DNA of 51,148 nucleotides, taken from NCBI RefSeq assembly GCF_000341105.1, contig NZ_ANBB01000069.1, positions 1 through 51,148 on the forward strand, in the 5' to 3' direction. Position numbers and translations under genes: made by a program. The number at the start of each line of letters is the position of its first letter. The stretch's first letter is position 1. The notes beneath the pieces were generated by a model. That model was not told the DNA's origin, did not search any database, and worked only from the letters and a program-made list of their open reading frames with translations. Of this stretch, positions 14,061 through 28,957 are shown one piece after another. Source of the stretch: Nocardiopsis potens DSM 45234. Its GTDB lineage: Bacteria; Actinomycetota; Actinomycetes; Streptosporangiales; Streptosporangiaceae.

Positions 14061-15902
14061 ATGTGTGGCATCGCCGGCTGGGTGGACTTCCACCGAGACG
14101 TGCGCACCGAGACCCCGGTGCTCGACCGGATGACCGAGACGATGGCCTGCCGCGGGCCGGACGACGCCGGTACGTGGGCCGACGCCCGCGCGGCGCTCGG
14201 CCACCGGCGGCTGTCCGTCATCGACCTCGAAGGCGGCCGCCAGCCGATGGCCGCGGACGAGGACGGCCGCCCCCTCGCCTGCCTGACCTACAGCGGAGAG
14301 GTCTACAACTTCCGAGAGCTCCGCACCGAACTGGCCGCGCGCGGGCACCGGTTCCGCACCCGCAGCGACACCGAGGTCGTCCTCCGCGGCCACCTGGAAT
14401 GGGGCGAGGGCCTCGTCGACCGCCTGAACGGGATGTTCGCCTACGCGCTCTGGGACGCCCGCCGGCAGGAGCTGCTCCTGGTCCGCGACCGGATGGGCGT
14501 CAAACCCCTGTACTACTTCCCGCTGAGCGGCGGGATCGTGTTCGGTTCCGAGCCCAAGGCCCTGCTCGCCCATCCGGAGGTCCCGCGCCGGATCGACGCG
14601 GACGGCATGCGCGAGGTCCTGGAGATGGTGAAGACGCCGGAGCAGGCGGTCTTCGCCGGCATGCGCGAAGTGCGTCCCGGGCAGATCGTCCGCGTCCGGC
14701 GGGAGGGCCTCGCCCGGCGCACCTACTGGGCCCTGGAGGCGCGCGAGCACACCGACGACCTGCGGACCACAATCGCGACGGTGCGCTCGCTCCTGGAGGA
14801 CATCGTCGACCGGCAGCTCGTCGCCGATGTACCGGTGTGCTCGCTGCTCTCCGGCGGACTGGACTCCTCCGCGATCACGGCCCTGGCCGCCGGGCGCCTC
14901 GGCTCCGAGCCCGTCCGCTCGTTCTCGGTCGACTTCGCCGACCACGGCACGGGCTTCCGCAAGGACGCGATCCACGGCTCCCCGGACACCCCCTTCGCCC
15001 GCGACCTGGTACGGCACGTCGGCTCCGAGCACAGCGAGATCATCCTGGACAGCGGAGAGCTCGCCGACCCGGAGCTGCGCGCCGCGGTGCTCCGGGCCGC
15101 GGACCTGCCCCCGACCTACTGGGGCGACATGTGGCCGTCGCTGTACCGGCTGTTCCAGGAGATCAGGAAGGAGTCCACGGTCGCCCTCTCCGGGGAGTCG
15201 GCCGACGAGGTCTTCGGCGGGTACCCCTGGTTCCACACCCCGGAGGCCCTGAAGGCCGACACCTTCCCCTGGCTCGCCTCGCCCACCAGGGCACTGTTCG
15301 ACGGAAAGGGCCTGTTCTCCCCGTCCCTGCTGGAGAAGCTCGACATGGCCGGCTTCCTCCGCGACAGCCACGCGCAGGCGATGGCGGAGGCGCCGGTGCT
15401 GCCCGGGGACGGCGAGCAGGAGCGCCTGATGCGCCGCCTCACCCACCTCAACCTGACCCGGTTCAACCAGGCGCTCCTGGACCGGAAGGACCGGATGAGC
15501 ATGGCGGTGGGCCTGGAGGTGCGGGTGCCCTTCTGCGACCACCGCCTGGTGGAGTACGCCTACAACGTCCCCTGGGAGATGAAGTCCTTCGACGGGCGGG
15601 AGAAGAGCCTGCTCCGCGCGGCGGTGTCGGACCTGCTCCCGGAGTCGATCCTGAACCGCGTGAAGAGCCCCTACCCCACCACCCAGGACCCCGGCTACGA
15701 AGGCGCCCTGCGGGCGGAGGCCGCGGCGGTGCTGGCGGATCCGGACTCGCCGGTGCTCCCCCTGCTGGACGCCTCCGCGGTACGGGCGCTGCTGGACACT
15801 CCCCTGGGCGACACCAGCCGCAAGTACGACCGGATGAACCTGGAGACGGTGCTCGGGCTGAACGGCTGGCTCTCGGCCTACTCGGTCTCCATCGACCTCT
15901 GA
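14061..15902 (+). CDS. asnB: Asparagine synthase (glutamine-hydrolysing), class II amidotransferase
   Basis: The 613-aa protein starts MCGIAGWVDF, exposing Cys2 as the glutaminase nucleophile, with an Ntn amidotransferase domain to about residue 205 and a synthetase domain containing the ATP pyrophosphatase loop LLSGGLDSSAIT. Length and domains are those of AsnB, which converts aspartate and glutamine to asparagine. GAGGAG precedes ATG 14061. It could serve primary metabolism, but homologues also act in secondary-metabolite amidation, and it lies between an ArsR regulator and the exporter that shares a regulator with the 18-28 kb cluster, so a role in that pathway is possible. Confidence 0.92.
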   Translation: MCGIAGWVDFHRDVRTETPVLDRMTETMACRGPDDAGTWADARAALGHRRLSVIDLEGGRQPMAADEDGRPLACLTYSGEVYNFRELRTELAARGHRFRTRSDTEVVLRGHLEWGEGLVDRLNGMFAYALWDARRQELLLVRDRMGVKPLYYFPLSGGIVFGSEPKALLAHPEVPRRIDADGMREVLEMVKTPEQAVFAGMREVRPGQIVRVRREGLARRTYWALEAREHTDDLRTTIATVRSLLEDIVDRQLVADVPVCSLLSGGLDSSAITALAAGRLGSEPVRSFSVDFADHGTGFRKDAIHGSPDTPFARDLVRHVGSEHSEIILDSGELADPELRAAVLRAADLPPTYWGDMWPSLYRLFQEIRKESTVALSGESADEVFGGYPWFHTPEALKADTFPWLASPTRALFDGKGLFSPSLLEKLDMAGFLRDSHAQAMAEAPVLPGDGEQERLMRRLTHLNLTRFNQALLDRKDRMSMAVGLEVRVPFCDHRLVEYAYNVPWEMKSFDGREKSLLRAAVSDLLPESILNRVKSPYPTTQDPGYEGALRAEAAAVLADPDSPVLPLLDASAVRALLDTPLGDTSRKYDRMNLETVLGLNGWLSAYSVSIDL

Positions 15903-15996
15903 TCCCGGCGGCCGGGCCCTTCCTCCCCGGCCTCCGCCCGGATCCGGGGCTCCGCCGGGGGCCGCCCGCTTCCCGCCGCATCCGCACGCTCACCCC

Positions 15997-16063
15997 TTGA
16001 CACAGAACGGAACCGATCGGTACCGTTCCTGTTGATCGAAAACGGTACCGATCGGTTCCGTTT
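15997..16063 (+). promoter_or_regulatory. Promoter with two TetR operators upstream of the MFS exporter
   Basis: TTGACA (15997-16002) is a strong -35 element. Two 24-base palindromic sites follow, 16005-16028 and 16040-16063, each built on ACGGAACCGATCGGTACCGT or its complement; the second is nearly the reverse complement of the first. Site 1 covers the -35/-10 spacer. A third copy lies at 28985-29008, directly upstream of the TetR gene at 28325-28957, which identifies the likely repressor. Confidence 0.8.
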
Positions 16064-16175
16064 CAGGGCGCGCGGGCCGGCGGACGAGAGCGGCCCCCTC
16101 GGGGCTCCGCATCGAACGCCTGACGACCGACACCGCCGGCCGGCAGGGCCGGCCGGGGAAAGGAACGGATAGCGA

Positions 16176-17447
16176 ATGCTCGGAGACCGATCCGCTGCGG
16201 ATTCAGCGGCCCACGCGCGGCCGCGGTGGAGCGTCCTGATACTGGCGTTCGGCACCTTCGCCATCGGCACCTGCGAATTCGTGCTCGCCGGCCTGCTCCC
16301 CCAGCTCTCCGCCTCACTCGACGTCACGGTCCCCACGGCCGGGCAGGTCGTCACCGTGTTCGCGCTGACCTGCGCGGTGCTGGCCCCGGTCCTGGCCACC
16401 GCGACCGCCGGCCTCCCCCGGCGGCGGGTGCTGCTCGCCGCGGCCGCCGTCTACCTCGCCGGCAACGTCGGCACCGCGCTCGCCCCCGACTTCACCGTGC
16501 TCCTCCTCGCCCAGATGGTGGCGGCGGCGGGGGCCGGCCTGTTCATCCCGACCGCCTCGGTGACCGCATCGGCCCTGGTCGCCCCGGAATGGCGCGGGCG
16601 CGCCATCGCCCTCGTCACCACCGGCCTGACCGCCGCGACGGCCCTCGGAGCCCCCATCGGCACCGTCCTGGGCGGAATGCTCGGCTGGCGCAGCGCGGTG
16701 CTCTTCGTCGCCGCCCTGGCCCTGCTCGCGATGGCGGGGCTGGCCGTGCTGGTGCCCAAGAACGTGAACGCCCCCGCCCCCGAGACGCTGCGCGCCCGGC
16801 TCACCCCGCTGGCCGACCGCCGGGTGGTGATGATCCTGGTGACCACCCTGCTCGCGTTCACCGCCGTCTACATCCCCTACACCTACATCTCGGCCGTGTT
16901 CGCCCCGGCCACCGGCGGCGACAGCGTCCGCCTCGCCGTCCTGATGTCGCTGGTCGGCATCGTCGGCACGCTCGCCAACTACGCCGCGGGCTCGCTGGCC
17001 GACCGCGTCGGCAGCCGGCGCGTCGTGGCGGGCGCCCTGGTCTGGCTGGCCGCCACCCTGCTCCTCATCCCGCTGGCGACCACGCTGTACCCCGCGGCCG
17101 TGCTCATGGTGGTCCTCTACGGCTTCGCCGCATTCGCGATCACCGCGCCGCAGCAGCACCGCCTCATCACCCTGAAGCCCGAGTCCGCGTCCGTCCTGAT
17201 CTCCCTGAACGCCGCGATCCTCTACCTCGGCATCACGATGTCGGGCGTGCTCGGCGGTGCCGGGATCGTGCTGGTCGGGGCCGGGAAGCTGACCCTCATC
17301 GCGGCCGGCATCGCCCTCGCCGCCCTGCTCATGTCCGAACTCGCCCACGCCGTCTCCCGGCGCGGTCCGGCCCGGGCGGGCGACGAGGGCGGCGGAGAGG
17401 CCCTCGAGCAGCCGGAAGCCCCTGCCCCCGGCCCCCGGCCCGTATAA
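16176..17447 (+). CDS. MFS exporter, DHA1/AraJ-like
   Basis: The 423-aa protein has 12 predicted hydrophobic segments and the DHA1 signature beginning FAIGTCEFVLAGLLPQLSAS, as in AraJ/Cml-type drug efflux pumps. The C-terminus is a charged Pro/Gly tail. Its promoter carries two operators matching the one at the TetR gene 12 kb downstream, past the biosynthetic genes, so it is likely induced by, and exports, the cluster product or an intermediate (inference). Confidence 0.9.
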   Translation: MLGDRSAADSAAHARPRWSVLILAFGTFAIGTCEFVLAGLLPQLSASLDVTVPTAGQVVTVFALTCAVLAPVLATATAGLPRRRVLLAAAAVYLAGNVGTALAPDFTVLLLAQMVAAAGAGLFIPTASVTASALVAPEWRGRAIALVTTGLTAATALGAPIGTVLGGMLGWRSAVLFVAALALLAMAGLAVLVPKNVNAPAPETLRARLTPLADRRVVMILVTTLLAFTAVYIPYTYISAVFAPATGGDSVRLAVLMSLVGIVGTLANYAAGSLADRVGSRRVVAGALVWLAATLLLIPLATTLYPAAVLMVVLYGFAAFAITAPQQHRLITLKPESASVLISLNAAILYLGITMSGVLGGAGIVLVGAGKLTLIAAGIALAALLMSELAHAVSRRGPARAGDEGGGEALEQPEAPAPGPRPV

Positions 17448-17488
17448 GCGGGCCCGGCCGGGCCGGCCGGGCCCGCCGGCCCCGCAGA

Positions 17489-17542
17489 GCGGAAATGCGT
17501 GTGGCCCCCGATCCGCGGATCGGGGGCCACACGCATTTCCGC
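17489..17542. terminator. 54-bp perfect palindrome (terminator)
   Basis: Two 27-bp arms meet without a loop at 17515/17516 (centre ATCCGCGGAT), 41 bases after the MFS stop, followed by ATTCCTTCC. This exceptionally stable structure probably insulates the exporter from the downstream operon. The bases GAAATGCGT in the arm recur just after it, at 17567. Confidence 0.75.
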
Positions 17543-17559
17543 ATTCCTTCCATACGGAC

Positions 17560-18036
17560 CCGAAATGCGTTTCCTCAACTGCTTTCCTCTCAATGAACAG
17601 CGGACCACACCCCTTCGAACTCACCGCGAAAACTCACGCTCGATAACACGTGAGAAAGACTCGCATTCCCGAGTCAGAGAATCCTTGAATCGTCAATAGA
17701 ATGACCCGATCCGGCCCCGGAACCACGAAAAGTGACCAGGCGAAAATCCGACTCCCCTCACCCTTGACCTCGTTTTTTGATCATCTTCGACCTGACCTCC
17801 GCATAGCCGACCCACACCCCTGATACTCCACATCACCAAAAGATCATTTTTCGTTACCGACAGTGATCATCTCTGGTCGAAGGGCCCTTTACTTCCCCTG
17901 TACGGTCGCGTAAAAAGAACACGGCTGCGCGGGACATCGCACGCCGAGGTTTGCTCGAACGCAAACCCGCGAGAGCCGTCCCGCCCCGGTCGATCGAAGA
18001 TCGAATACCACCCGCGCGAAGCAGGGAGCGTCTGCC
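17560..18036 (+). promoter_or_regulatory. AT-richer upstream region of the biosynthetic operon
   Basis: This 480-base stretch holds no gene I can support and is clearly less GC-rich than the rest of the window. It contains dyads CTCACG/CGTGAG (17633-17654), GACTCG/CGAGTC (17658-17675) and GGTTTGC/GCAAACC (17948-17967). The last is 70 bases before the first gene. I expect the operon promoter and regulator sites here but cannot fix hexamers. Confidence 0.4.
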
Positions 18037-18939
18037 ATGGTGAGCAGGTTGATCGATGAGAGCGAGCGGCTGAAGACCATCCTGGACCGCCTGAACGAGA
18101 AGTCCATCGAGGACTACTACAACCCGTACCGGGTATTCGAATGGCCCGACGAGCTTCCCGCCGAAATGTGGTGGATGACTCCCGAGCTGACCACGACATA
18201 CGGAACCCCCATTGCCGACGAGCTGCCGGCCGAACGACTCCACGCCCTCTCCCGCCACGAAAGCGTCAACTTCTACAGCCTCAACGTCCACGGAATCCGC
18301 GAGCTGCTCATCGAGGTCACGAAGCGAATCCACACCGCGGACTTCCGGACCCCGTCGGAATTCTTCCACCACTTCATCGGCGAAGAGAACGAACACATGT
18401 GGTTCTTCGCCGAGTTCTGCCTCCGCTATGGCGGAAAGATATACACGCAGCCCCGCGGCGGCGCGGAGACCATTCCTCCGAACAACGCCGAGAGTCTTCT
18501 CGTATTCTGCAGGATATTGATCTTCGAGGAACTCGTCGACCATTTCAACTCCAAAATGGCCCTGGATCGGAACCTGCACGAAACGATCCGGCAGGTCAAC
18601 CGGATCCACCACCAGGACGAGTCACGCCACATCGCCTTCGGTCGGGAACTCGTCTCCGTCCTCTTCGAGGACTTCAGGAAGACCGCGACCGAAGAAGAGA
18701 TCACCCAGGTCAGCGACTACCTGAAACGGTACATGAGTTTCAGCTTCGAGTCGCTGTACAGTCCCCAGGTGTACCGCGACGCCGGAATCGAGAACCCGCT
18801 CGAATTCCGGCGCCGGCTGCTGAACGATCCCAGAAGGAAAGAGTTCGAGCAGCAGGTGTTCCGGAAGACCTTCTCCTTCCTGACCAAGACCGGGCTCCTC
18901 GGCGACCGCGACCTGTCCGCATTTTCAGCGAGCAACTGA
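18037..18939 (+). CDS. AurF-like non-haem diiron N-oxygenase
   Basis: The 300-aa protein has the helical diiron pattern of the AurF/CmlI family: Glu75, Glu117-x2-His120 (EENEH), Glu164/165 (FEELVDH), and His191-x3-Glu195-x2-His198 (HHQDESRH). That final H-x3-E-x2-H spacing, with an extra His ligand, is the AurF hallmark. Such enzymes oxidise amines stepwise to hydroxylamine, nitroso or nitro groups. As the next genes load an amino acid on a carrier protein, an aminoacyl-ACP is a likelier substrate than a free arylamine (inference). GGGAG precedes ATG 18037. Codon use is more A/T-rich than its neighbours, hinting at separate acquisition. Confidence 0.85.
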   Translation: MVSRLIDESERLKTILDRLNEKSIEDYYNPYRVFEWPDELPAEMWWMTPELTTTYGTPIADELPAERLHALSRHESVNFYSLNVHGIRELLIEVTKRIHTADFRTPSEFFHHFIGEENEHMWFFAEFCLRYGGKIYTQPRGGAETIPPNNAESLLVFCRILIFEELVDHFNSKMALDRNLHETIRQVNRIHHQDESRHIAFGRELVSVLFEDFRKTATEEEITQVSDYLKRYMSFSFESLYSPQVYRDAGIENPLEFRRRLLNDPRRKEFEQQVFRKTFSFLTKTGLLGDRDLSAFSASN

Positions 18940-18955
18940 AGATCCCGGAGCGATC

Positions 18956-19777
18956 ATGGCGAACAGAATATCCAGCGGACTTGCGATCTTCGATCCCGAC
19001 CACACGGAACTGATCCGAGAACTGGACGCGACTTTCACCGGATGGGCGCTCGAAGCGGGGGCGGAGCAGATATCGGTCCCCCCGGTCTACCCGGTCGAGG
19101 ACCTGGAGAAGTTCGACGTCTACGACAATTTCCCGCACCTGGCCCTGGTCGCCGGCCCGCTCGCGGACCCGGAGCGGAGCAGGCCCGAAGGGCACCGGCT
19201 CCCCTCCGACCGGCTGGCCGGGGCGCACCTGGGCCTGCCCACCGCCGCCTGCTTCGGCGCCTACCTCTACTTCGAGGACCGGCGGATCCCCTCCTCGACC
19301 CTGGTCACCCTGGTCAACCGCTGCTTCCGCAACGAGGAGTACTTCGACGGGCTGCGCAGGCTGCTCGGCTTCCAGATGCGGGAGGTGGTCCCGCTCGGCG
19401 ACTCCGAACACGTCTCCCGGATCCTTGCGGCGTTCACCGGGCGCATCGCCGCGTTCCTCGACGCCCTGGACCTGGAGGCCCGCTCCGCGGCCGCGACCGA
19501 CCCCTTCTTCGACCGGGAGGGCGGGCGCGCCGTGATGCAGCGGCTCCAGGAGGTCAAGCGGGAGTTCATCGTCGACGACCTGGCCATCGCCTCGGTCAAC
19601 GTCCACCGGAACTTCTTCGGAGAGCGGTGCGGGATCACCACCGGCGACGGCGCGAACGCCTTCACCGGCTGCGTCGCCTTCGGGCTCGAACGCTGGGCGA
19701 GCGTGCTCCTCACCCGGTACGGCAACGCGGAGAAGGCGGCCGAGGCGGTCCGGTCCGCCTCCCCGGGACCGGAGTGA
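18956..19777 (+). CDS. Class II aaRS-like amino acid:[carrier protein] ligase
   Basis: The 273-aa protein resembles the catalytic core of seryl-tRNA synthetase without a tRNA-binding arm. Motif 2 is seen in NRCFRNEEYFDGLRRLLGFQ (121-140) and motif 3 in GLERW (243-247). Cys99, Glu127 or Glu128 and Cys239 match the Cys/Glu/Cys zinc site of amino acid:carrier-protein ligases such as Bradyrhizobium Bll0957, which load glycine or alanine on an ACP phosphopantetheine. It follows the N-oxygenase by 16 bases and precedes a PPTase and an ACP, so its probable role is to charge the ACP at 20302 with a small amino acid. Confidence 0.82.
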   Translation: MANRISSGLAIFDPDHTELIRELDATFTGWALEAGAEQISVPPVYPVEDLEKFDVYDNFPHLALVAGPLADPERSRPEGHRLPSDRLAGAHLGLPTAACFGAYLYFEDRRIPSSTLVTLVNRCFRNEEYFDGLRRLLGFQMREVVPLGDSEHVSRILAAFTGRIAAFLDALDLEARSAAATDPFFDREGGRAVMQRLQEVKREFIVDDLAIASVNVHRNFFGERCGITTGDGANAFTGCVAFGLERWASVLLTRYGNAEKAAEAVRSASPGPE

Positions 19778-19782
19778 CCCCG

Positions 19783-20202
19783 GTGCCGAGCAGAGTGGGG
19801 GTGGACCTCGTCCCGCTGGCCCGGGTCCGGCGGATGCTGGACGGCGGCGGAAGGACCGCCCTGGAGCGCATGGTGCGCCCGGACGAACTCGACGAATGCC
19901 GGCGCGGAGGGCTGATCGACGTGTCCGCGCTGGCCGGGCGCCTCGCCGCCAAGGAAGCCGTTTTCAAGCTCTTCCTCCGGGAGGACACCGTCCTTCCCTG
20001 GACCCTGATCAGGATCTCGGCGCCGCAACGCTCCTGGCCCGAGGTCGAGTTGGAGGGGGCCGCCCGCGACCATGCCCGCGATGCGGGGATCGACGGCCCC
20101 ATCTCCGTGAGCATCACGCACGACGGCGACTACGCGATCGCGGTCGCCGCGGCGGTCGCCGCTCCGGCCGGAGAAGGCCCGCGGCGGCAGCCGATCGCCT
20201 AG
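19783..20202 (+). CDS. AcpS-type 4'-phosphopantetheinyl transferase (first copy)
   Basis: The 139-aa protein has the AcpS motifs GVDLVPL near the N-terminus (Mg-binding Asp8) and RLAAKEAVFKLF, and ends its fold with SITHDGDYAIAVA. It transfers phosphopantetheine from CoA to the carrier-protein serine. GTG 19783 has GGAG 8 bases upstream; a GTG at 19774, overlapping the previous stop, is the alternative. A dedicated PPTase next to its ACP suggests the ACP is a poor substrate for the housekeeping enzyme. Confidence 0.85.
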   Translation: MPSRVGVDLVPLARVRRMLDGGGRTALERMVRPDELDECRRGGLIDVSALAGRLAAKEAVFKLFLREDTVLPWTLIRISAPQRSWPEVELEGAARDHARDAGIDGPISVSITHDGDYAIAVAAAVAAPAGEGPRRQPIA

Positions 20203-20301
20203 CCCTTCTTCCCCTCGCCCGCCCGCGCCCCGGCCGGCGCGGCCGAGAGCCGCGGGCGGCGCACGTGCGCCGCCCTGCCCCCCGCCCCTAGGAGGAACGT
20301 C

Positions 20302-20565
20302 ATGCCCGAAACTCCGACCACGGCGTTCGACGAGGTCACCGCCTGGATTCTGGCGAAGAACCCGGAGCGCGAGAGCGTGGGCGCCGACGAGGACCTGGTC
20401 GAGAACCGCCTCGTCGACTCCCTCTCCTTCGTCGAGTTCATCTTCACCATCGAGCAGGCCGCCGACACCGAGATCCCGATGGACACCCTCGACCTCGACG
20501 ACCTGCGGACCCTGAACAGCATCAGGAAGGCCTTCTTCGACGGCCGCACCCCCGTGACCGGCTGA
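20302..20565 (+). CDS. Acyl carrier protein 1
   Basis: The 87-aa acidic protein has the attachment site VDSLSFVEF, with Ser40 as the predicted phosphopantetheine carrier, in a typical four-helix ACP. GGAGG lies 8 bases before the ATG. Immediate neighbours (aaRS-like ligase, PPTase, methyltransferase, N-oxygenase) suggest it carries the amino acid during N-oxidation and methylation. Confidence 0.92.
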   Translation: MPETPTTAFDEVTAWILAKNPERESVGADEDLVENRLVDSLSFVEFIFTIEQAADTEIPMDTLDLDDLRTLNSIRKAFFDGRTPVTG

Positions 20566-20586
20566 GGACCACAGCGAAGGACGGAC

Positions 20587-21441
20587 ATGGAAGAGATCTC
20601 GTACACCGCGCAGTGGACGGCCGCCGCGCGGGCGCTCGAATCCGAGCGCCCGTCGGGCCGCCTGATCACGGACGAATACGCGCGCCGCCTCGCCGCCCCC
20701 CGCGGGTTCGAGCTGCTGGAGCGGTACAAGGGTGCGGGGGTGGCGGAGTTCATCGCCGTCCGGACCCGCTACATGGACGACTCGATCACCCGGGCACTGG
20801 CCGGCGGCGGCATCCGCCAGGTCGCCATGGTCGCCAGCGGCATGGACACGCGCTCCTACCGGCTGGACTGGCCGGAGGGGACCGTGGTCTACGAAATCGA
20901 CCACGGCGCGCTGCTGGAGGAGAAGCGGCGGCGGCTGCGCGGCTTCGCCCCCGAGCCGGCGGTGCGGACCGTTCCCGTTCCCGCCGACCTCGCAGAGGAC
21001 TGGCGCACACCGCTGGCCGGGGCCGGGTTCGACGCCTCCCTGCCGACCCTGTGGGTGGCGGAGGGCCTGCTGTTCTTCCTCGAGGAGAAGCAGGCGGCCG
21101 ACCTGCTGTCGGACCTGGCCCGGGCATCGGCGCCCGGATCCCTGCTGGCCACCGACATGACGAGCGCGTCGCTGCTGAAGCACCCGATGACCCAGCCGTT
21201 CCTCGCCGCCCTCGCGGGCGACGGCACGCCGTGGCTGTTCGGGACCGACGACCCCGCCGGGTTCCTGGCCCGCTGCGGCTGGACGCTGCGCGACCTCAAG
21301 CAGCCCGGGGAGCCCGGCGCGGGGGAAGGGCGCTGGCCCTACCCGCCTCCGCCCCGGGACGCCCGGGGGGCACCGCGGAACTGGCTGGTCGGCGCCGCCC
21401 TGGCGGCGTCCGCTCCGGGCGGGCAGGAGGTTCCGCGGTGA
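20587..21441 (+). CDS. LCMT/Ppm1-type SAM-dependent O-methyltransferase
   Basis: The 284-aa protein is of the leucine-carboxyl-methyltransferase-like family: QVAMVASGMDTRSYRLDWPE forms the SAM-binding loop and WVAEGLLFFL follows. Family members methylate carboxylates and other acidic oxygens. Here the likely acceptor is an oxygen created by the N-oxygenase, for instance a nitronate on ACP, or a terminal carboxylate (both inference). It starts 21 bases after the ACP stop and its stop overlaps the KASIII start by 4 bases. A related enzyme is encoded at 40401. Confidence 0.85.
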   Translation: MEEISYTAQWTAAARALESERPSGRLITDEYARRLAAPRGFELLERYKGAGVAEFIAVRTRYMDDSITRALAGGGIRQVAMVASGMDTRSYRLDWPEGTVVYEIDHGALLEEKRRRLRGFAPEPAVRTVPVPADLAEDWRTPLAGAGFDASLPTLWVAEGLLFFLEEKQAADLLSDLARASAPGSLLATDMTSASLLKHPMTQPFLAALAGDGTPWLFGTDDPAGFLARCGWTLRDLKQPGEPGAGEGRWPYPPPPRDARGAPRNWLVGAALAASAPGGQEVPR

Positions 21442-22406
21442 CCGGGACCGCCACGCTCGAGCGGATCGAGTCCGGCCTGCCCTCCTCCCGGGTGAAGATC
21501 GACGACCTGGCCGGGCGGCTGGGCCTGCGGGCCACCGAGATCGGCGTCTTCCGCAAGATCTACGGACTGGACGAGCTGCGCTACGAACCGGGCGGCGGCC
21601 TGCTCGACCTCGTCCTGCCGCCCGCCCGCCGCGCCCTGGAGGCACTGCCCGAGGGCCGGCGCGTCGACTACGTCGTCTTCGCGCACACCATGCAGATGCT
21701 CACCCCGCCCGGCCTCGACGCCGCACCGCTCATCCGCGACGCGCTCGGGCTGCACGGCGCCGAGGCCTTCGCCGTCAACCAGCAGGCCTGTGTGAGCAGC
21801 ATGGGCGCGATCGACATCACCGCCGAGCTGATGCGCGCCGACCGCGGCCGGCGCGCCCCCGGCGGCTACGGCCTCATGGTCACCGGCGAACGCGCCTACT
21901 CCCCCCGGATCCAGCTCATCCCGCACAGCGCCATCATGGCCGAGGCCGCCGCGGCCTGCCTGTTCACCCTGGACGGGCCCGGCGACCCGGTGCTGTCCTA
22001 CGTCGACCGGGTGCACGGGGAGTTCGCCGACGGCCTGCTGATGACCGACGACCGGATCAAGCGGTTCGGGGCCGTGTACGCGCCGGAACTGGCCGACGTG
22101 ATCCGCGAGGCGGTGGCCGAAGCGGGCCTGGAACCGGCCGAAGTCGACCTGGTCATCCCGCACAACGTCAACACGATCTCCTGGCGGCACGTGATCAAGG
22201 AGCTCGAGATCCCGCCCGAGCAGGTGTTCCTGGACAACGTCCCCCGGCTGAGCCACTGCTACTCCTCGGACGTCTTCGTCAACTACACGACACTGCGCGA
22301 CGCGGGGCGCCTGAAGGCCGGCCGCCCCTACGTGCTGGCCTCCGTCGGCCTCGGCGCCACCTTCGGCGCCATGGTGATCAGGCGGTCCGGAACGGAGGCG
22401 GCATGA
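21438..22406 (+). CDS. KASIII-like ketosynthase/acyltransferase with altered triad
   Basis: The 322-aa protein, from GTG 21438 overlapping the methyltransferase stop, has a thiolase fold with nucleophile Cys118 (NQQACVSSMG) and His242 (IPHNVNTISW). At the position of the catalytic Asn in FabH (usually GN(T/S)) it has Ser-His (LSHCYSSD, His273). Cys-His-variant KASIII enzymes in biosynthetic clusters often move acyl groups to O or N instead of making C-C bonds. It may join the product of ACP1 to the amino acid on ACP2; decarboxylative condensation is the alternative. Stop and next start overlap (ATGA). Confidence 0.82.
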   Translation: MTGTATLERIESGLPSSRVKIDDLAGRLGLRATEIGVFRKIYGLDELRYEPGGGLLDLVLPPARRALEALPEGRRVDYVVFAHTMQMLTPPGLDAAPLIRDALGLHGAEAFAVNQQACVSSMGAIDITAELMRADRGRRAPGGYGLMVTGERAYSPRIQLIPHSAIMAEAAAACLFTLDGPGDPVLSYVDRVHGEFADGLLMTDDRIKRFGAVYAPELADVIREAVAEAGLEPAEVDLVIPHNVNTISWRHVIKELEIPPEQVFLDNVPRLSHCYSSDVFVNYTTLRDAGRLKAGRPYVLASVGLGATFGAMVIRRSGTEAA

Positions 22407-23773
22407 GCGGCGCCGCCACGTCCACCGCCGCACTCAAGGAAGCCCTCGTCGGCGACCGCGAGGCGGAGTTCGTCTGGCTCTGCAACTTCGAAGCGGAGCA
22501 CGAATGGGCACAGGGCTTCCCCGGGCTGCCCGCCGCGCAGGGCGCCGCCGCCGCGCCCGTCGTGCAGCGCATGGAGCAGCTCGGCTCCCTGCTGTCCGAC
22601 CCCGGGGACCACCTCCTCCTCGGGGCCCCGCTGGACCCCGGCCACCGCCGCCACCTCGAGGAGGCCGGGCTCACCCCCGCGCAGGAGATCCTCGTCGACG
22701 GCGCGGACACCGCCCGGGCGGTGCTCGGCTCCCCCTCGGTACTGCGGCGGCTGCGCGAACTGGCCGACCGGGGCGCCCACCTGATGCCGATGGGGATGTC
22801 CCGGAGCATCGCGGAGATCGCCGCGGCGACCGGCCTCAAACCCGCCGCCCCGGACGCCGCCACCGCCCGGCGGGTGAACAGCAAGATCTACAGCAGGGCG
22901 GTGGTCGACGAGCTCGGGCTGCGGGCCGTCCCGGGCCGCAGCTGCACCACCGCGGACGGACTCCGGTCGGCGCTGCTCTCCGACACGGCCGAGGACCCGC
23001 CGGTCATCGTCAAGGACGCCTACGGGGTGTCCGGCAAGGGCCTGCTGGTCGTCGACTCCCGGAAGCGGGCCGAGGGCCTGGTGCGGATGGTGGAGCGCAG
23101 GGCCGCCCGCACCGGCGATCCGGCCGTGCACGTCGTCGTCGAGCGGTTCCTCCCCAAGCGGTTCGACCTCAACTACCAGTTCACCATCGACCGCGCCGGG
23201 CGCACCCGGCTGGACTTCGTCAAGCAGGCGCTCACCTCCGGCGGCGTCCACCAGGGGCACCTGGTCCCGGCCGGGCTGAGCTGCGCGCACATCGAGGAGA
23301 TCGGCCGCGCCGCCGAGCTGCTCGGCGGCCGGCTGCACGCCGACGGCTTCTTCGGCGCCGTGGGGGTCGACGCGCTGCTCGGCGAGGACGGCCTGCTGTA
23401 CCCGGTGCTGGAGATCAACGCCCGGTTGAACATGTCGAGCTACCAGAGCCGGGTGATGGAGCGCTTCCACCGCCCCGGCTCCATGGCACTGGCCAAGCAC
23501 TACACGCTGCGTCCGCGCCGCCCCGTCGGCTTCGCCGAGCTGACGGAGGCCCTGGACGGCCTGGCCGTCCCGCCGGCGGACGGCCGCGGCGCGCTCATCG
23601 CCTGCTTCGGGACGCTCAACGCCCACGGCCCGGAGCAGGGCGGATCCGCCCGCCCCGCCGAGGGGCGCCTGTACACGGTCCTGTTCGCCCCGGACGGCGG
23701 GCGGCTCGCAGAGCTGGACCGGCGCTTCGCCGAGCGGCTCGGCCGACTCACCGACCAGGAGGCCGCCCGATGA
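22403..23773 (+). CDS. ATP-grasp amino acid:[ACP] ligase, BtrJ-like
   Basis: The 456-aa protein has an ATP-grasp core with VIVKDAYGVSGKGLLVV (201-217) for nucleotide binding and the metal-binding EINARLNMSSYQ (338-349) near the end. With an overlapping PLP decarboxylase and a nearby ACP it reproduces the BtrJ-BtrK-BtrI trio of butirosin biosynthesis, in which BtrJ ligates L-glutamate to BtrI. I therefore infer loading of glutamate or aspartate onto the ACP at 25251. Which acid is used cannot be read from the sequence. Confidence 0.75.
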   Translation: MSGAATSTAALKEALVGDREAEFVWLCNFEAEHEWAQGFPGLPAAQGAAAAPVVQRMEQLGSLLSDPGDHLLLGAPLDPGHRRHLEEAGLTPAQEILVDGADTARAVLGSPSVLRRLRELADRGAHLMPMGMSRSIAEIAAATGLKPAAPDAATARRVNSKIYSRAVVDELGLRAVPGRSCTTADGLRSALLSDTAEDPPVIVKDAYGVSGKGLLVVDSRKRAEGLVRMVERRAARTGDPAVHVVVERFLPKRFDLNYQFTIDRAGRTRLDFVKQALTSGGVHQGHLVPAGLSCAHIEEIGRAAELLGGRLHADGFFGAVGVDALLGEDGLLYPVLEINARLNMSSYQSRVMERFHRPGSMALAKHYTLRPRRPVGFAELTEALDGLAVPPADGRGALIACFGTLNAHGPEQGGSARPAEGRLYTVLFAPDGGRLAELDRRFAERLGRLTDQEAAR

Positions 23774-25137
23774 CCCGTGCGGACACGCCCCGCGAGGGCA
23801 CCGCGGAAGACACCCCCGCCGCAGAGGAATGGCGGGTCCAGGGCGTCCCGGCGAGCGAGCTCGCCCGGGCGTTCGGCACCCCTCTGTTCGTCTACGACGC
23901 GAACGCGCTGGAGGCGGTCTACAACGGCCTCCGCGAGCGCCTCGACCCCGCGATCGACATCCTCTATTCGCTGAAGGCCAACCCGAACGTGAGCGTCTGC
24001 TCCTACCTCGCCTCACTGGGGGCGGGTGCGGAGGTCTCCTCAGCGGTGGAGCTGCGCACCGCCCTGTGGGCCGGCGTCCCCCCGGAGCGCATCGTCTACC
24101 TCGGCCCCGGCAAGACCCGGCGCGAACTGGAGGAGTGCGTACGGGCCGGAGTGGGCGCCGTGGTCTGCGAGTCCCTGGAGGAGCTCCGCGAACTCGACCG
24201 GATCGCCGCCGGGTCCGGCGACCGGGAGGTGCCCGTGCTGCTGCGGGTCAACCCGGAGTTCCACACCAAGGGCTCGGGGCTGGCGATGGGCGGCAAGCCC
24301 CGGCAGTTCGGCATCGACGCAGGGGCCCTGCGCACCGCCGGAGGACCGATCGCCGGGCTGCGCCGCGCCCGCGTGCAGGGGTTCCACGTCTACATGGGCA
24401 CCCGGTTCCTCGACGCCGAGGACATCGTGCACAACACCGAGCAGATCCTCGGCACCGCGGCCGAACTGGCCGAGGTCCTGGGCATCGAGCTGAAGGCGGT
24501 GGACTTCGGCGGCGGGTTCGGCGTCGCCTACTTCGACAATGAGACCGATCCGGACCCCGACACGCTCGCGTCGGGGATCAACCGGGCCGCCCGGGGCTTC
24601 CTCCGGGACCACCCGGGCTGCCGGCTGATCAACGAGCTGGGCCGCTACCTGACCGCGACATGCGGCGTCTACATGGTGCGGGCGCTCTACGTGAAGGAGT
24701 CCATGGGGGAGCGGTTCGTGGTGGCCGACGGAGGCACCAACCACCACATGGCCGCCGTCGGCATCGGCAGCTTCGTCAAGCGCAACTTCCCCATGCGGAT
24801 GCTGAGCCCCCGGCGCCCCGGCGAGACCGGCACGTACACCGTCACCGGCCCCCTCTGCACGCCCAACGACGTCCTGGGCAGGCGCGTCGTGCTGCCTCCC
24901 GTCGCCCCCGGGGACCTGCTCGGGGTCGAGCGCTCGGGGGCCTACGGGCCGAGCGCCTCGCCGGGGCTCTTCCTGAGCCACGGCTTCCCCGGCGAGGTCC
25001 TGGTGCACGACGGCACCCCCCACCTGGTCCGTCTCCCCGACCGCGGGGACGACCTGCTCGCCCGGCAGCGGCTGGTCGACTTCACCGCCGGGGAGGAGCG
25101 GACCGCGGGCCCGGCGGGGAGGGCCTCCGGCGGCTGA
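23770..25137 (+). CDS. Fold type III PLP decarboxylase, BtrK-like (aminoacyl-ACP decarboxylase)
   Basis: The 455-aa protein belongs to the alanine-racemase-fold decarboxylases (LysA/ODC group): PLP-lysine Lys69 in YSLKANPNVS, the glycine loop VDFGGGFGVAY, and C-terminal CTPNDVLGRR. In butirosin, BtrK decarboxylates glutamyl-ACP to the 4-aminobutyryl thioester; next to a BtrJ-like ligase and ACP the same reaction, or formation of a beta-alanyl thioester from aspartate, is likely. ATG 23770 overlaps the previous stop, so the two are probably translationally coupled. Confidence 0.82.
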   Translation: MTRADTPREGTAEDTPAAEEWRVQGVPASELARAFGTPLFVYDANALEAVYNGLRERLDPAIDILYSLKANPNVSVCSYLASLGAGAEVSSAVELRTALWAGVPPERIVYLGPGKTRRELEECVRAGVGAVVCESLEELRELDRIAAGSGDREVPVLLRVNPEFHTKGSGLAMGGKPRQFGIDAGALRTAGGPIAGLRRARVQGFHVYMGTRFLDAEDIVHNTEQILGTAAELAEVLGIELKAVDFGGGFGVAYFDNETDPDPDTLASGINRAARGFLRDHPGCRLINELGRYLTATCGVYMVRALYVKESMGERFVVADGGTNHHMAAVGIGSFVKRNFPMRMLSPRRPGETGTYTVTGPLCTPNDVLGRRVVLPPVAPGDLLGVERSGAYGPSASPGLFLSHGFPGEVLVHDGTPHLVRLPDRGDDLLARQRLVDFTAGEERTAGPAGRASGG

Positions 25138-25250
25138 GCCGGGCGGCCGCTCCCCCGCGCCGCCCGGAGGCGGAGGCGCATCCGCCGCATCCCACACCGA
25201 CGAACACCGGAACCCCGGTTCCGGACACCCACCACCCTGAGGAGTCGCAC

Positions 25251-25523
25251 ATGACCCGCGAGGAGATCACCGCCGCCATCACCGACGCTCTCGGCACGGT
25301 CCTGGAGCGCGAGGTGCCGGAGGCCACCGAGGAGACCCGGCTCTTCGATGAGCTGCATCTGGACTCCACGTCCGTGCTCGAACTGCTGATGGCCCTCGAG
25401 GACGCCACCGGGATCGAGGTGGACCCGGAGGACATCGACATGGACGACTTCGCCACGGTGGGCACGCTCGCGTCCTACCTGGAGTCGCGGGGCCCCGCCC
25501 GATCCGCCGCCGAGCACGCGTGA
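25251..25523 (+). CDS. Acyl carrier protein 2
   Basis: The 90-aa acidic protein has LHLDSTSVLELL, with the Ser after Asp as phosphopantetheine site, and starts behind GAGGAG. It differs clearly from ACP1. Its place after the BtrJ/BtrK-like pair suggests it is their BtrI-like partner. The 113-base gap before it holds no other feature I can support. Confidence 0.92.
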   Translation: MTREEITAAITDALGTVLEREVPEATEETRLFDELHLDSTSVLELLMALEDATGIEVDPEDIDMDDFATVGTLASYLESRGPARSAAEHA

Positions 25524-25527
25524 GGTG

Positions 25528-26352
25528 ATGGAGGTGCCCTCGCTGACGTCCGCCTGCGCGGTGGTCTCCCCGGAGGGGGAGACCGCCCCGGGCGTCGATG
25601 AACTGACCGACTTCTACCGCGACCTCGCCGCACCGTTCGGCACCGCCGTCGACGCGGAGCGGGTCCGCGCCGGGACCCGCGTCTCGCACCGGGACCTCGC
25701 CGACCGGCTGGCCTCGGTGCGGCCCCCCGGCCCCGCACCGGGGCTGATCGTCCTCACCCACGCCCTGCCCGACCTGCACCCGTTCACGGCCGTCGCCCCC
25801 CGTCTCGACGCCCTGCTGGGCGGCGGCGCCACCGCCTTCGGGATCTCGCAGCAGGGGCTGTCCGGACCGTTCACGGCGCTGCGCCTGGTCGACCGATTCC
25901 AGCGGTCGGGGCGGTGCACGGCCGCCGCCGTGGCGGTGCTGGAGCAGTCGACGATGCCCTCCCCCCATCCGCACGCGCCGGCGGAGGGGCTCGTCGACTC
26001 GGGGGTGCTCCTGGAGTTCGGCACCGGCGGCGGGCCGGTGCTCAGCGCCGTCGAGGAGTTCGCGCCGTCGGAGCGGCCCGGTCCGCGGGCGGCCGCGCTC
26101 GCCGCCGGGTCCCCGGAGGGGACGCTGCTCGTGCTCGGCCCCGGGGTCGACGGCGACGAGGTCGACGACGGGGGCGGAGCCGCCGACCGGGTGCGCGCCC
26201 GGGCGGACACCCACTGCACCGGGATCTGGCTCGCCCTGGCGGAGAACCTGCGCACCTGGGCTGAGGAGTACCGCACGGTGCTGCTGTGCGACAGGGACCC
26301 CGGGTCGGGGCGCGGCCATCTCGCCGTGTTCCGCTCCTCCCCCGGGGACTGA
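25528..26352 (+). CDS. KASIII-like half protein without the active-site cysteine
   Basis: The 274-aa protein is recognisable as thiolase-like through ISQQGLSGPFTALRLVDRF (106-124), which aligns with NQQACVSSMGAID of the KASIII at 21438; the catalytic Cys is replaced by Gly110. No C-terminal PHNxN or GN motif can be seen. It may be a structural partner of the active KASIII, as with chain-length-factor-type or PqsB/PqsC pairs, or a decaying copy; intact frame and operon position favour the former. GTG 25525 or ATG 25528 could be the start. Confidence 0.6.
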   Translation: MEVPSLTSACAVVSPEGETAPGVDELTDFYRDLAAPFGTAVDAERVRAGTRVSHRDLADRLASVRPPGPAPGLIVLTHALPDLHPFTAVAPRLDALLGGGATAFGISQQGLSGPFTALRLVDRFQRSGRCTAAAVAVLEQSTMPSPHPHAPAEGLVDSGVLLEFGTGGGPVLSAVEEFAPSERPGPRAAALAAGSPEGTLLVLGPGVDGDEVDDGGGAADRVRARADTHCTGIWLALAENLRTWAEEYRTVLLCDRDPGSGRGHLAVFRSSPGD

Positions 26353-26358
26353 GCGCCG

Positions 26359-26877
26359 GTGGTCCGGATCGGCGTCGACGTCCTGGGCGTCGGAGAGCTG
26401 AACGGCCTGCTCCGGCGCGACTGGTTCCGCCGCTACGCCTACTCCGGGGCGGAGCTGGCCGAGGCCCGCAGGCACGGCGCCGAACGCGCCCGCGAGTTCC
26501 TCGCCGGCCGGTTCGCCTGCAAGGAGTCGGTGGCGAAGGTGCTCGGCTGCGGGTTCGCCGGAGGGGTGCGCCCCTGCCATGTGTCCGTCCTGCGCGGCCG
26601 CTCGGGGGCTCCGGAGGTCCGGTTGACCGGGCCCGCCGCCGAGCGCGCCGCCGCGCTGGGGCTCAGCGGGGTCCAGGTGTCCATCGCGCACAAGGGCGGG
26701 CTGGTGGTGGCGGTCGCGCTGGGAATCGCCGGCGGCGCCCCTCCGGGGCCGCCCTTGCCCGCGTCCGGCCTGCGCGCGCCGGCCGCGGAGGCCGCGGAGG
26801 CCGCCCTGCTCGCGCAGGCCCGGGCGGCGCCGCCCGGGCCCGGAACCGACCACGACGACGAGAGGAGAGCGACATGA
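26359..26877 (+). CDS. AcpS-type phosphopantetheinyl transferase (second copy)
   Basis: The 172-aa protein has IGVDVLGVGEL near the N-terminus and RFACKESVAKVLG, the AcpS metal and CoA motifs, then an Ala/Pro-rich tail of about 50 residues. It is well diverged from the copy at 19783. Two AcpS genes and two ACPs in one operon suggest each ACP has its own activating enzyme. Its stop overlaps the thioesterase start. Confidence 0.82.
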   Translation: MVRIGVDVLGVGELNGLLRRDWFRRYAYSGAELAEARRHGAERAREFLAGRFACKESVAKVLGCGFAGGVRPCHVSVLRGRSGAPEVRLTGPAAERAAALGLSGVQVSIAHKGGLVVAVALGIAGGAPPGPPLPASGLRAPAAEAAEAALLAQARAAPPGPGTDHDDERRAT

Positions 26878-27623
26878 GCGACATGGCGGAGGTTCCCGCC
26901 CAGCGGCCGGACCTCTGGGTCCGGTGCCTGAAACCGGAGGCGGAACCGCGGGCCCGGGTCCTGTTCTGCCCGCACGCCGGCGCGTCCGCCGACGCGTTCA
27001 CCGCGCTGGCCCGGCGGCTGGCGCCCGGTGTCGAAGGGCTGGCGGCCCAGTACCCGGGGCGGCGCGACCGGAAGGGGGAGCCGGCCGCGGGCGACGTCCG
27101 GGAGATCGCCGCCGCGCTCGCCGCCGCGCGGCCGCGGGCGGGCCGGCGGCCGCTGATCGTGTTCGGGCACAGCCTGGGGGCGGCCGTGGCCTTCGAGACG
27201 GCCCTGGGGCTGAGCGGCGCCGGCGGGCTCACCCGGCTGGTGGTGTCCGGTCGGCCCGCCCCCGCCGACGGCCTGGGGCTCCCCCCGCCCGCCGGCGATG
27301 ACGACATCGTCGCCGAGCTGCGCAGAACCGGCGCCGTCCCGCAGCGGCTGCTGGACCGCCCCGCGTTCCGCGAGTCGATCCTGTCGGTGCTCCGGCACGA
27401 CTTCCGCGCCAACGCGACCTACCGGTGCCCGCCGGACGCGCAGGTCCCCGTGCCCATCACCTTCCTGCTCTCCTCCGACGACCCCTACGTCGACGGCGAG
27501 CGCGCCGAGAGGTGGGCGAAGCACACCGCATCGGAGTTCCGCGTCGCGGCCTTTCCCGGGGGGCACGGCTTCCTGTTCGACCGTCCTGAGGCCGTCCTGG
27601 AAGAGGTCCAGGCGGACCTGTAG
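26874..27623 (+). CDS. Type II thioesterase
   Basis: The 249-aa alpha/beta hydrolase has FCPHAGASADAF (oxyanion region), nucleophile elbow FGHSLGAA with Ser100, the acid in SSDDPYV and His in PGGHGFLF. Type II thioesterases remove stalled or wrong acyl groups from carrier proteins; with no other release enzyme in the operon it may also release the product. AGAGGAG precedes ATG 26874. The gene ends the rightward operon and converges on the PNPOx-like gene. Confidence 0.88.
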   Translation: MSDMAEVPAQRPDLWVRCLKPEAEPRARVLFCPHAGASADAFTALARRLAPGVEGLAAQYPGRRDRKGEPAAGDVREIAAALAAARPRAGRRPLIVFGHSLGAAVAFETALGLSGAGGLTRLVVSGRPAPADGLGLPPPAGDDDIVAELRRTGAVPQRLLDRPAFRESILSVLRHDFRANATYRCPPDAQVPVPITFLLSSDDPYVDGERAERWAKHTASEFRVAAFPGGHGFLFDRPEAVLEEVQADL

Positions 27624-27668
27624 CCGGATCCGCGGCCGGGCCCGCCCGGGGTCGGGGCGCGCCCCGGC

Positions 27669-28328
27669 TCAGCCGACGGGGTCGGCCGTCCCCCGGCCGC
27701 CGCGCGTGCCGAGGGTCCTGCGCAATGCCGCCACCTCGGATTCCAGCGCCGCCTTGTCGCTGCGCAGGGACCTGATCTCGGTCAGGAGGGGTTCCAGGTC
27801 GGCGCGGGTGAACCGCTGCGGGATGTGCTGGGCGCAGTTCCAGCTGTAGGCCTCGACCCTGACGACCACCAGCCGCTCGACCCGGCCGTCGGTCCTCCGG
27901 GCGCACACCCGCTCCGCCAGCCCGGGCTCCTCGTCCAGGGAGCGGACCGCGGCGCGCCCGAACACCTTGAGCCGGGTCTGCGCCGGATAGTCCATGAAGA
28001 ACAGCGAGGCGCGGTCGTTGGCGCGCAGGTTGCCGTTGGAGATGTACTGGCGGTTGCCGCGCACGTCGGCGTAGGCCAGGGTGCTCTCGTCGACGACGTG
28101 GACGAACCCGGGGGGACCGCCGCGGAACTGCACGTAGGGCCAGCCCGTTTCGCCGGCCGTGGCGAAGTAGAAGCCGTCCCGCTCGGCGATGAACGCGGCC
28201 TCGTGCGGCCCGAGGGGGTCGGGCTCCTCGGCTCCGAAGGCCAATCGGCCCGCCGCTCTGCGGCTGCCCTCCTCTTCCTGGACTTCGCGCACCGCTTCGG
28301 TGAACGCGATCTGCGCGTAGCGCCTCAT
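27669..28328 (-). CDS. Pyridoxamine 5'-phosphate oxidase-like flavoprotein
   Basis: The 219-aa protein has a split beta-barrel FMN-binding domain (FYFATAGETGWPYVQFRGG, then SNGNLRANDRASLFFMDY) and a C-terminal coiled-coil-like segment (about 175-205). Members bind FMN, F420 or haem and reduce or oxidise small molecules. Its start overlaps the upstream TetR stop by 4 bases, so both form a two-gene operon repressed by that TetR. It may tailor the cluster product or protect against a reactive N-oxide/nitro compound (inference). Confidence 0.82.
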   Translation of the reverse strand: MRRYAQIAFTEAVREVQEEEGSRRAAGRLAFGAEEPDPLGPHEAAFIAERDGFYFATAGETGWPYVQFRGGPPGFVHVVDESTLAYADVRGNRQYISNGNLRANDRASLFFMDYPAQTRLKVFGRAAVRSLDEEPGLAERVCARRTDGRVERLVVVRVEAYSWNCAQHIPQRFTRADLEPLLTEIRSLRSDKAALESEVAALRRTLGTRGGRGTADPVG

Positions 28329-28957
28329 TCCGGCCCGTCCCTCCTTTCTCCAGTGCGGCCCGCTCCGGCACCCGAGCGGGCCGGCGCCGCCGGGGCCTCC
28401 GGCCCGTCGCCGGGCGGCCGTTCCATCAGCCCCCGCGCGATCTCCTTGGAGTCCCGGGCCGGGGAGGGGTCCCGCTCGCGCAGCGCGGTCACCGTGGCCC
28501 CGTCCATGAGCATCATGAACCGCTGCGCCATCGCCTCGTGCCCGTCGACGCCGGCCTCCTTCAGCAGGCCGCTCAGGAAGGCGATCACCAGGTGCTTGTG
28601 CCGGACCGCGACCTGGTAGGCCCGGGATTCCGGGTCCGCCACCTCCACCATCGCGTTAATGGAGGCGCAGCCGCGGAACTCCGGCGCCGCGAACTGCGCG
28701 CCGAGCGCGTCGAAGACCGCGAGCGGATCTCCGGACTGCGCCCGCACCGCCTCTTCGAGCGCGTCCCGCCAGCGGCGGTCGTACCGTTCGATGATCTCTA
28801 CGACGAGATCGTCCTTGCTGGTGAAGTGGCGGTAGAAGGAGGCCCGGCCGATCCCTGAGGCGGACAGCAGCCGGTCCACGCCGACCGCGTGGATCCCATC
28901 GCTGTAGAAGAGCTTCTCCGCGGCGGCGATCAGGCGTTCGCGAGCGTGCGTCGGCAT
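28325..28957 (-). CDS. TetR-family regulator of the exporter and the PNPOx-like gene
   Basis: The 210-aa protein has a TetR HTH (VGVDRLLSASGIGRASFYRH, about 26-45) and a family-typical ligand domain. The operator at 28985, just upstream of its start, matches two sites in front of the MFS gene at 16176. It therefore probably represses itself, the PNPOx-like gene and the exporter, and is released by the pathway product or an intermediate. Confidence 0.9.
   Translation of the reverse strand: MPTHARERLIAAAEKLFYSDGIHAVGVDRLLSASGIGRASFYRHFTSKDDLVVEIIERYDRRWRDALEEAVRAQSGDPLAVFDALGAQFAAPEFRGCASINAMVEVADPESRAYQVAVRHKHLVIAFLSGLLKEAGVDGHEAMAQRFMMLMDGATVTALRERDPSPARDSKEIARGLMERPPGDGPEAPAAPARSGAGAGRTGERRDGPE

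Follow-up and report, generated by a model that had tools for sequence, protein, structure and literature searches.

The window analysed here is a 51,148-nucleotide stretch of Nocardiopsis potens DSM 45234 (assembly GCF_000341105.1, contig NZ_ANBB01000069.1) that carries a biosynthetic operon of twelve same-strand genes (18037-27623, forward strand). The operon encodes an AurF-type diiron N-oxygenase, an amino acid:[carrier protein] ligase akin to aminoacyl-tRNA synthetases (aaRS-like ligase), two phosphopantetheinyl transferases (PPT1 and PPT2), two acyl carrier proteins (ACP1 and ACP2), a methyltransferase (MT), two KASIII-like proteins (KAS_a and KAS_b), an ATP-grasp ligase, a decarboxylase dependent on pyridoxal phosphate (PLP) and a thioesterase. 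A preliminary description had named these genes and had seen in them a two-carrier logic without a non-ribosomal peptide synthetase (NRPS) or polyketide synthase (PKS) megasynthase. The twelve genes are confirmed, the logic is supported and the enzyme classes stand as given, except that KAS_b lacks the catalytic Cys. Its statement that no similar cluster had been described has to be given up: the first half of the operon (half A, from the N-oxygenase to MT) matches the nitronate cassette of enteromycin-class clusters, and the ten genes N-oxygenase, aaRS-like ligase, PPT1, ACP1, MT, KAS_a, ATP-grasp ligase, decarboxylase, ACP2 and KAS_b follow one another in this order also in Streptomyces achromogenes NRRL B-2120 and S. 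albireticuli NRRL B1670. The locus is quite probably an enteromycin-class biosynthetic cluster, that is, one for a glycine-derived O-methyl nitronate.

The block of twelve genes is a real unit and part of a larger conserved segment. A search for co-conserved gene blocks, as had been proposed at the outset, found it in G242, a genome of another genus of the same family, with all twelve genes in the same order and 59-84% identity in the best matching stretches. The segment common to the window and G242 runs from an ArsR-family gene at 13531 to a TetR-family gene ending at 28957 and adds an AsnB amidotransferase, a major facilitator superfamily (MFS) transporter, a PPOX-type flavoprotein and the two regulators. 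The unit first outlined was thus genuine but drawn too small, the conserved cluster being about 17 genes (13531-28957). For the borders, all open reading frames of the window of at least 80 residues were compared with 51 kb of G242 (L116, L031, L117). Outside the segment, the sole listed G242 match (E<=1e-15, >40% identity) was a BTAD-type regulator with NB-ARC and TPR repeats (37391-40138, reverse strand; 48% over 244 residues).

KAS_a at 77% and the ATP-grasp ligase at 70% identity were found only in G242 among the matches listed, all others being at most 53% (345 and 342 genomes searched, the best few candidates per genome scored). The aaRS-like ligase has no match in any of five congeners; of 345 genomes searched in the order, 41 gave one at E<=1e-10. 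Together with the transposase and integrase pieces at the left border, its absence from the congeners fits acquisition by transfer. A 4-base overlap of MT and KAS_a (21438-21441) bridges the junction of the two halves.

To the right of the cluster lies a separate locus for a thiazole/oxazole-modified microcin (TOMM)/azoline peptide (31500-37386, forward strand), with a SagD-type YcaO protein (TIGR03604) and a leader-binding protein (TIGR03882), both of which pass their cut-offs, an ATP-binding cassette (ABC) exporter and a SagB-like dehydrogenase that scores under its cut-off.

Table 1. Genes of the cluster and of its left border, in window coordinates (SAM, S-adenosylmethionine).
Feature	Position	Strand	Evidence and remarks
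Transposase piece	12086-12979	-	PF01609; directly left of cluster border
Integrase-core piece	13274-13534	+	PF13683; directly left of cluster border
ArsR-family regulator, 149 aa	13531-13980	-	PF12840/PF01022; 64% identity in G242 beside AsnB; left end
AsnB, glutamine-hydrolysing asparagine synthase-like amidotransferase	14061-15902	+	TIGR01536, 505 bits (cut-off 267)
MFS efflux transporter	16176-17447	+	PF07690; nearest named families Cmx/CmrA, below cut-off; syntenic in G242
AurF-type diiron N-oxygenase	18037-18939	+	PF11583, E=1.2e-32
aaRS-like amino acid:[carrier protein] ligase	18956-19777	+	NF005479 (below cut-off); 3mey/4h2s group, E=1.3e-22
PPT1, AcpS-type	19774-20202	+	PF01648, E=3.8e-9
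ACP1	20302-20565	+	PF00550; VDSLS; proposed carrier of the glycine/nitronate branch
MT, SAM methyltransferase (LCM/TIGR00027)	20587-21441	+	PF04072, E=1.8e-47; TIGR00027, E=4e-63; proposed nitronate O-methyltransferase
KAS_a, KASIII-like	21438-22406	+	PF08541; Cys118-His242-His273 from alignments
ATP-grasp ligase	22403-23773	+	PF18604, PF02786; proposed amino acid:ACP2 ligase
BtrK-like PLP-dependent decarboxylase	23770-25137	+	Proposed substrate aminoacyl-ACP2
ACP2	25251-25523	+	PF00550, E=2.5e-10; AsbD model NF005798 below cut-off; LDSTS; proposed carrier of the decarboxylated amino acid
KAS_b, KASIII fold without catalytic Cys	25528-26352	+	Profile and fold searches
PPT2, AcpS-type	26359-26877	+	PF01648, E=6.1e-10
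Type II-like thioesterase (GHSLG)	26874-27623	+	PF00975, E=4.2e-41; 60% identity in G242; release or editing
PPOX-type flavoprotein	27669-28328	-	PF01243; TIGR04025, 8.5e-16, below cut-off; candidate pathway redox enzyme
TetR-family regulator	28325-28957	-	PF00440; 70% over 162 aa in G242; right end

Enzymes of the two halves

In the N-oxygenase, residues E117/H120, E164 and H191/E195/H198 are invariant in 18 homologues, and they agree with the ligand spacing described for FDO N-oxygenases (PMC13061610). The metal ligands of an AurF-type diiron oxygenase are present, the first Glu ligand (perhaps E89) being assigned tentatively only. Profiles reached the solved AurF structures poorly (E=0.38 in one search, no match in another), so membership of the AurF family rests on Pfam (PF11583). 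The nearest solved structure of the aaRS-like ligase is 3mey, and the enzyme is proposed to load glycine onto ACP1. MT adjoins the cassette, and no nitronate monooxygenase (NMO) was matched in the window at E<=1e-3.

Half B opens with KAS_a. The triad of FabH, the canonical KASIII, is Cys-His-Asn, and that of KAS_a is Cys-His-His, with a His at the Asn position (alignment of 15 of 35 full-length homologues and the window). KAS_b (17 of 36 and the window) has no Cys, so that neither protein is a canonical KASIII. Domain searches gave no family match for KAS_b. That it is an artefact was ruled out by its KASIII fold, which emerges from profile comparison with KAS_a (probability 85, E=6e-6), from weak profile matches to FabH (best E=1.9e-4) and from fold searches, where PqsBC and the ketosynthase/chain-length factor (KS/CLF) of ishigamide biosynthesis (identity 13-17%) were matched and ChlB3, an acyl-transferring KASIII relative, was among the best. 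KAS_b is probably a non-catalytic partner of KAS_a.

The decarboxylase has as nearest solved structures 7ru7, an L-glutamyl-[BtrI ACP] decarboxylase (E=3.1e-83), and 2j66, BtrK (E=4.3e-83); it is closer to BtrK (3.1e-83) than to diaminopimelate decarboxylase (8.4e-50), which supports the BtrK-like decarboxylation suggested in the preliminary description. The ATP-grasp ligase is called BtrJ-like because of its domain type and its BtrK-like partner.

Among the accessory proteins, AsnB has an intact N-terminal Cys (MCGIAG) and is 82% identical to its counterpart at the same position in G242. It is rare in the genus, with a match in one of five congeners (46%) at E<=1e-40 and a second copy elsewhere in the genome of the window, G000 (50%). 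A terminal carboxamide or Asn is its proposed product. The MFS gene has a probable role in export or self-resistance, and G110 and G286 have MFS genes 42-44% identical to it close to the cassette. The PPOX flavoprotein shares 53-65% identity with its homologues from G242 and from further nitronate clusters (alignment of 8 of 12 full-length homologues and the window); its profile search of solved structures gave a single weak match, 2htd (E=0.0091).

Distribution of the two halves among genomes

A four-row N-oxygenase alignment served to scan the named genomes for half A, and 80 of 81 relatives were kept. N-oxygenase, ligase and ACP1 occur together in all 80 named loci, the ligase always adjoining the N-oxygenase. 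MT was found in 79/80, a count biased upward because the scan was seeded with MT-type N-oxygenases, and a PPT1-like gene in 76/80, the PPT1 and PPT2 queries cross-matching. KAS_a is present in 21 of these loci, each time with ACP2 and KAS_b (21/21). The ATP-grasp and decarboxylase genes stand in the window order in seven of the 21, namely L128, S. achromogenes NRRL B-2120 (L129), S. eurythermus (L130), L133, L137, S. albireticuli NRRL B1670 (L142), of a species that makes enteromycin, and S. eurocidicus (L156). After KAS_b, six of the seven carry d2 and an acyl-CoA-dehydrogenase-like gene (ACAD); L133 ends there at a contig end. The remaining 14 hold KAS_a/ACP2/KAS_b and a condensation-domain-like match, with neither ATP-grasp nor decarboxylase gene.

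Half A was also observed without half B (L125-L127, L132). In four loci, from Microbispora, Amycolatopsis, Micromonospora and Actinomadura, it is accompanied by ketosynthase-acyltransferase-ketoreductase-ACP (KS-AT-KR-ACP) and adenylation-peptidyl carrier protein (A-PCP) genes, as judged by Pfam on the Microbispora copy and, for the PKS only, on the Actinomadura copy. In L034, L035 and L036, a ligase 53-55% identical to that of the window stands with ACP1 and no N-oxygenase match; the surrounding block, of about 15 genes, is common to three genomes. Most of the cassette was also seen in L138, a 5.9-kb contig labelled Candidatus Melainabacteria, perhaps misbinned or transferred.

In parallel, half B was found without half A in the fetched 20-kb regions from the order of the window (L096-L113), and it often ends with d2 and ACAD. 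It follows a fatty acyl-AMP ligase, two acyl-CoA dehydrogenases and an extra ACP in L105 and L110, near a MATE exporter, and it is associated with a condensation-domain protein and an ABC exporter in L096-L101; these and others are apparently separate cluster families. In 18 other short KAS_a loci (L053-L070), the ATP-grasp gene adjoins KAS_a in 16 and the decarboxylase comes next in 15, the neighbour of KAS_a being KAS_b in the other two (L067, L068). In L118 (4505-12618), the neighbours of KAS_a and KAS_b include two related ketosynthase genes, one of them analysed with Pfam, as well as genes for an EryCIII-like glycosyltransferase and a dTDP-sugar epimerase; an acyl-transfer or priming role of the pair seems likely there.

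Proposed pathway and its alternatives

Enteromycin consists of two halves joined by an amide and contains a three-carbon (C3) amine unit. By analogy, the aaRS-like ligase would load glycine on ACP1 (branch A), the diiron enzyme would oxidise the amine of glycyl-ACP1 to a nitronate and MT would trap it as the O-methyl nitronate. In branch B, the ATP-grasp ligase would load an acidic amino acid on ACP2, most likely aspartate and possibly glutamate, and the BtrK-like enzyme would decarboxylate it there to a beta-alanyl or a gamma-aminobutyryl (GABA) unit, respectively; aspartate is favoured only because of the C3 unit of enteromycin. The KAS_a/KAS_b pair might then transfer the nitronate acyl group carried by ACP1 onto the free amine of the unit on ACP2, making the amide without a condensation domain. 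The thioesterase may release the product, AsnB may form a terminal carboxamide, and the PPOX flavoprotein may act on the C3 unit, perhaps desaturating it, or supply electrons. Without such a desaturation, a dihydro-enteromycin-like compound would be expected. The calculated [M+H]+ values are 188.067 for enteromycin carboxamide (C6H9N3O4) and 190.082 for its dihydro form (C6H11N3O4). A short N-oxidised acyl-amino acid, as first suggested, remains the kind of product to expect.

Several observations weigh against this reading. The specificities for glycine, aspartate and nitronate are drawn from pathway likeness. Neither ACAD nor d2 was matched in the window or the G242 region; elsewhere in G000, the ACAD matches listed reach at most 35% identity and there is no strong d2 match (best E=5e-8 versus 1.6e-57 to 1.7e-62 in three control genomes), and G242 likewise has no close copy elsewhere. 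The S. achromogenes and S. albireticuli loci gave no AsnB match, so that carboxamide formation by AsnB cannot be carried over from them. The N-oxygenase tree has 49 rows, from the window, 44 of the 80 named loci and four further loci (the label 'PKS' on L040 is a misnomer from a weak match). It joins the window with G242 (98/97) and places the two next to L124 and the PKS-linked cassettes (89/90), apart from those Streptomyces loci that have branch B. On the favourable side, members of sequence cluster c5 occur in six loci without MT that were found through the ligase (L039, L040, L042, L043, L044, L046); the member in L039, the one of the six submitted to Pfam, is an NMO (PF03060). This fits the fork between O-methylation and denitrification that the title of He and Ryan announces. 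Nevertheless, other loci without MT (L037, L038, L041, L045, L048-L050) have no NMO-type gene nearby, and L152, which does have MT, gave a weak NMO match (27%); the fork is therefore blurred.

After MT, the window shows the order KAS_a/ATP-grasp/PLP decarboxylase/ACP2/KAS_b of the strict S. achromogenes type. As d2 and ACAD are missing after KAS_b, it is filed as enteromycin-class and not as that strict type, and the product, given AsnB and PPOX in both the window and G242, is probably a variant of the enteromycin class. The KAS_a tree was built from 22 of 23 rows (L140 was too short for inclusion) and gives the window and G242 a branch of their own, under midpoint rooting only and with a long window row. 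The d2 protein (alignment of 15 of 21 full-length homologues) may resemble the C-terminal part of ACAD: five of nine weak matches in G000 and G242 fall inside ACAD matches, the strongest (G000:C39) outside. Of the 21 named KAS_a loci, 12 carry PPOX and the six with ACAD all lack it; the loci without KAS_a have no PPOX either. L148 has neither PPOX nor ACAD, and L133 and L134 are incomplete on one side. Among the loci examined, only the window and G242 combine PPOX with ATP-grasp and decarboxylase. That PPOX replaces the dehydrogenase pair is a guess, and the pattern is no proof of it, since the 12 PPOX loci also lack ATP-grasp and decarboxylase.

A bolder version of the enteromycin-class scheme, which is possible but which we would not favour as it stands, holds that KAS_a/KAS_b is an amide synthase acting between an acyl-ACP and an aminoacyl-ACP and that branch B is a portable amide-forming cassette, often with an ACAD pair. 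Its acyl donors would be glycine nitronates here and acids activated by the fatty acyl-AMP ligase in L105 and L110; with the dehydrogenase pair lost or replaced by PPOX, a new enteromycin analogue would result.

The main rival concerns the KAS pair, because 14 of the 21 KAS_a loci lack the amino-acid branch and still keep KAS_a/ACP2/KAS_b. Branch A would run as proposed, and the pair would form a C-C bond by Claisen condensation with a malonyl-type unit on ACP2, the amine from the ATP-grasp and decarboxylase steps being joined by another enzyme. A Cys-His-His triad occurs in condensing KAS I/II, and the pair lies close to ketosynthase genes in L118. On the contrary, Pfam searches revealed no acyltransferase or ketoreductase domain among the cluster genes, the known structure of enteromycin has its halves joined by an amide, and ChlB3, which transfers acyl groups, matches the KAS_b fold. 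C-C bond formation is thus unlikely, though it deserves to be kept in mind.

A pathway unrelated to nitronates is less probable again. The N-oxygenase would make a hydroxamate, oxime, diazo or azoxy group and MT would act elsewhere. AurF-like enzymes occur in valanimycin (azoxy) biosynthesis; a hydroxamate pathway (LitN) and diazo formation (Dob3) are also known for AurF-type enzymes. However, the closest N-oxygenases are accompanied by the same ligase, ACP and MT, and none of the six dob-type hydrazone-forming Pfams appears among the hits of the 17 cluster genes (E<=0.01 or 0.001). Azoxy/valanimycin and diazo/azaserine readings were ranked low, the cassette partners matching enteromycin-class loci, and lipothrenin-type N-hydroxylation was set aside for its different gene set, as far as the available text of its source describes it. 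Lastly, that two unrelated operons are adjacent by chance, a concern raised in the preliminary description and fed by the existence of each half alone (half A in L125-L127 and L132, half B in L096-L113), is scarcely credible, the fused arrangement of the window recurring in G242 and in seven of the 80 named loci, all seven from Streptomyces, and the genes overlapping at the junction.

With the enteromycin-class assignment, an apparent orphan operon becomes a testable pathway outside Streptomyces, with a two-part design whose halves are also found apart. It raises a concrete question, i.e. whether a two-subunit KASIII-like enzyme forms an amide between two carrier-bound substrates. In addition, clusters with and without the dehydrogenase pair offer a natural comparison for the making of the enteromycin enamide. 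Both the KAS pair and the absence of the dehydrogenase pair merit experimental study.

Comparison with known systems

A literature search, judged for the most part from its listings, showed no paper with this gene set, and none that joins 'albireticuli' and 'enteromycin' was among those ranked. The locus nonetheless looks like a divergent enteromycin-class cluster and not a pathway type without precedent, its genes having been read correctly one by one from the start. Both the amino acid:carrier-protein ligase and the free carrier protein of the class are present in the window. According to PMC11035981, the nitronate intermediate of S. achromogenes var. streptozoticus NRRL 3125 is either O-methylated towards enteromycin or denitrified by a nitronate monooxygenase. 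A further report describes the oxidation of carrier-bound glycine by a diiron oxygenase and its O-methylation as in enteromycin carboxamide (PMC9967187, citing He and Ryan 2021, Nat. Chem. 13:599), and an enteromycin cluster is named as a genome-mining match in another (PMC11205464). The window would share with that pathway, as these papers describe it, carrier-bound glycine, diiron oxygenase and nitronate O-methyltransferase. Compared with the S. achromogenes-type cluster, the window is without the ACAD/d2 pair and contains AsnB, a thioesterase and the PPOX flavoprotein; the strain compared is NRRL B-2120, not NRRL 3125, for which the O-methylation was reported.

Akazaoxime and A-76356 are enteromycin-class antibiotics from a Micromonospora cluster with NRPS and PKS modules (PMC9967187). 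On that description, their cluster resembles the window in its diiron oxygenase and nitronate O-methyltransferase and differs in having these modules where the window has branch B. The PKS-linked loci L125-L127 and L132, akazaoxime-like in make-up by the same account, are nearest to the N-oxygenase of the window.

Outside the nitronate family, the ATP-grasp ligase, the BtrK-like decarboxylase and the free ACP are reminiscent of the butirosin BtrI/BtrJ/BtrK side-chain system; unlike there, the window genes are embedded with KASIII-like proteins, and the likeness to BtrJ is one of domain type. In the same way, the aaRS-like ligase is homologous over query residues 19-257 to amino acid:[carrier protein] ligase 1 (Bll0957; 3mey, 4h2s), from which it differs in belonging to a nitronate cassette. 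Finally, the KAS-fold pair recalls the two-subunit KAS enzymes PqsBC and ishigamide KS/CLF, the heterodimer being putative in the window.

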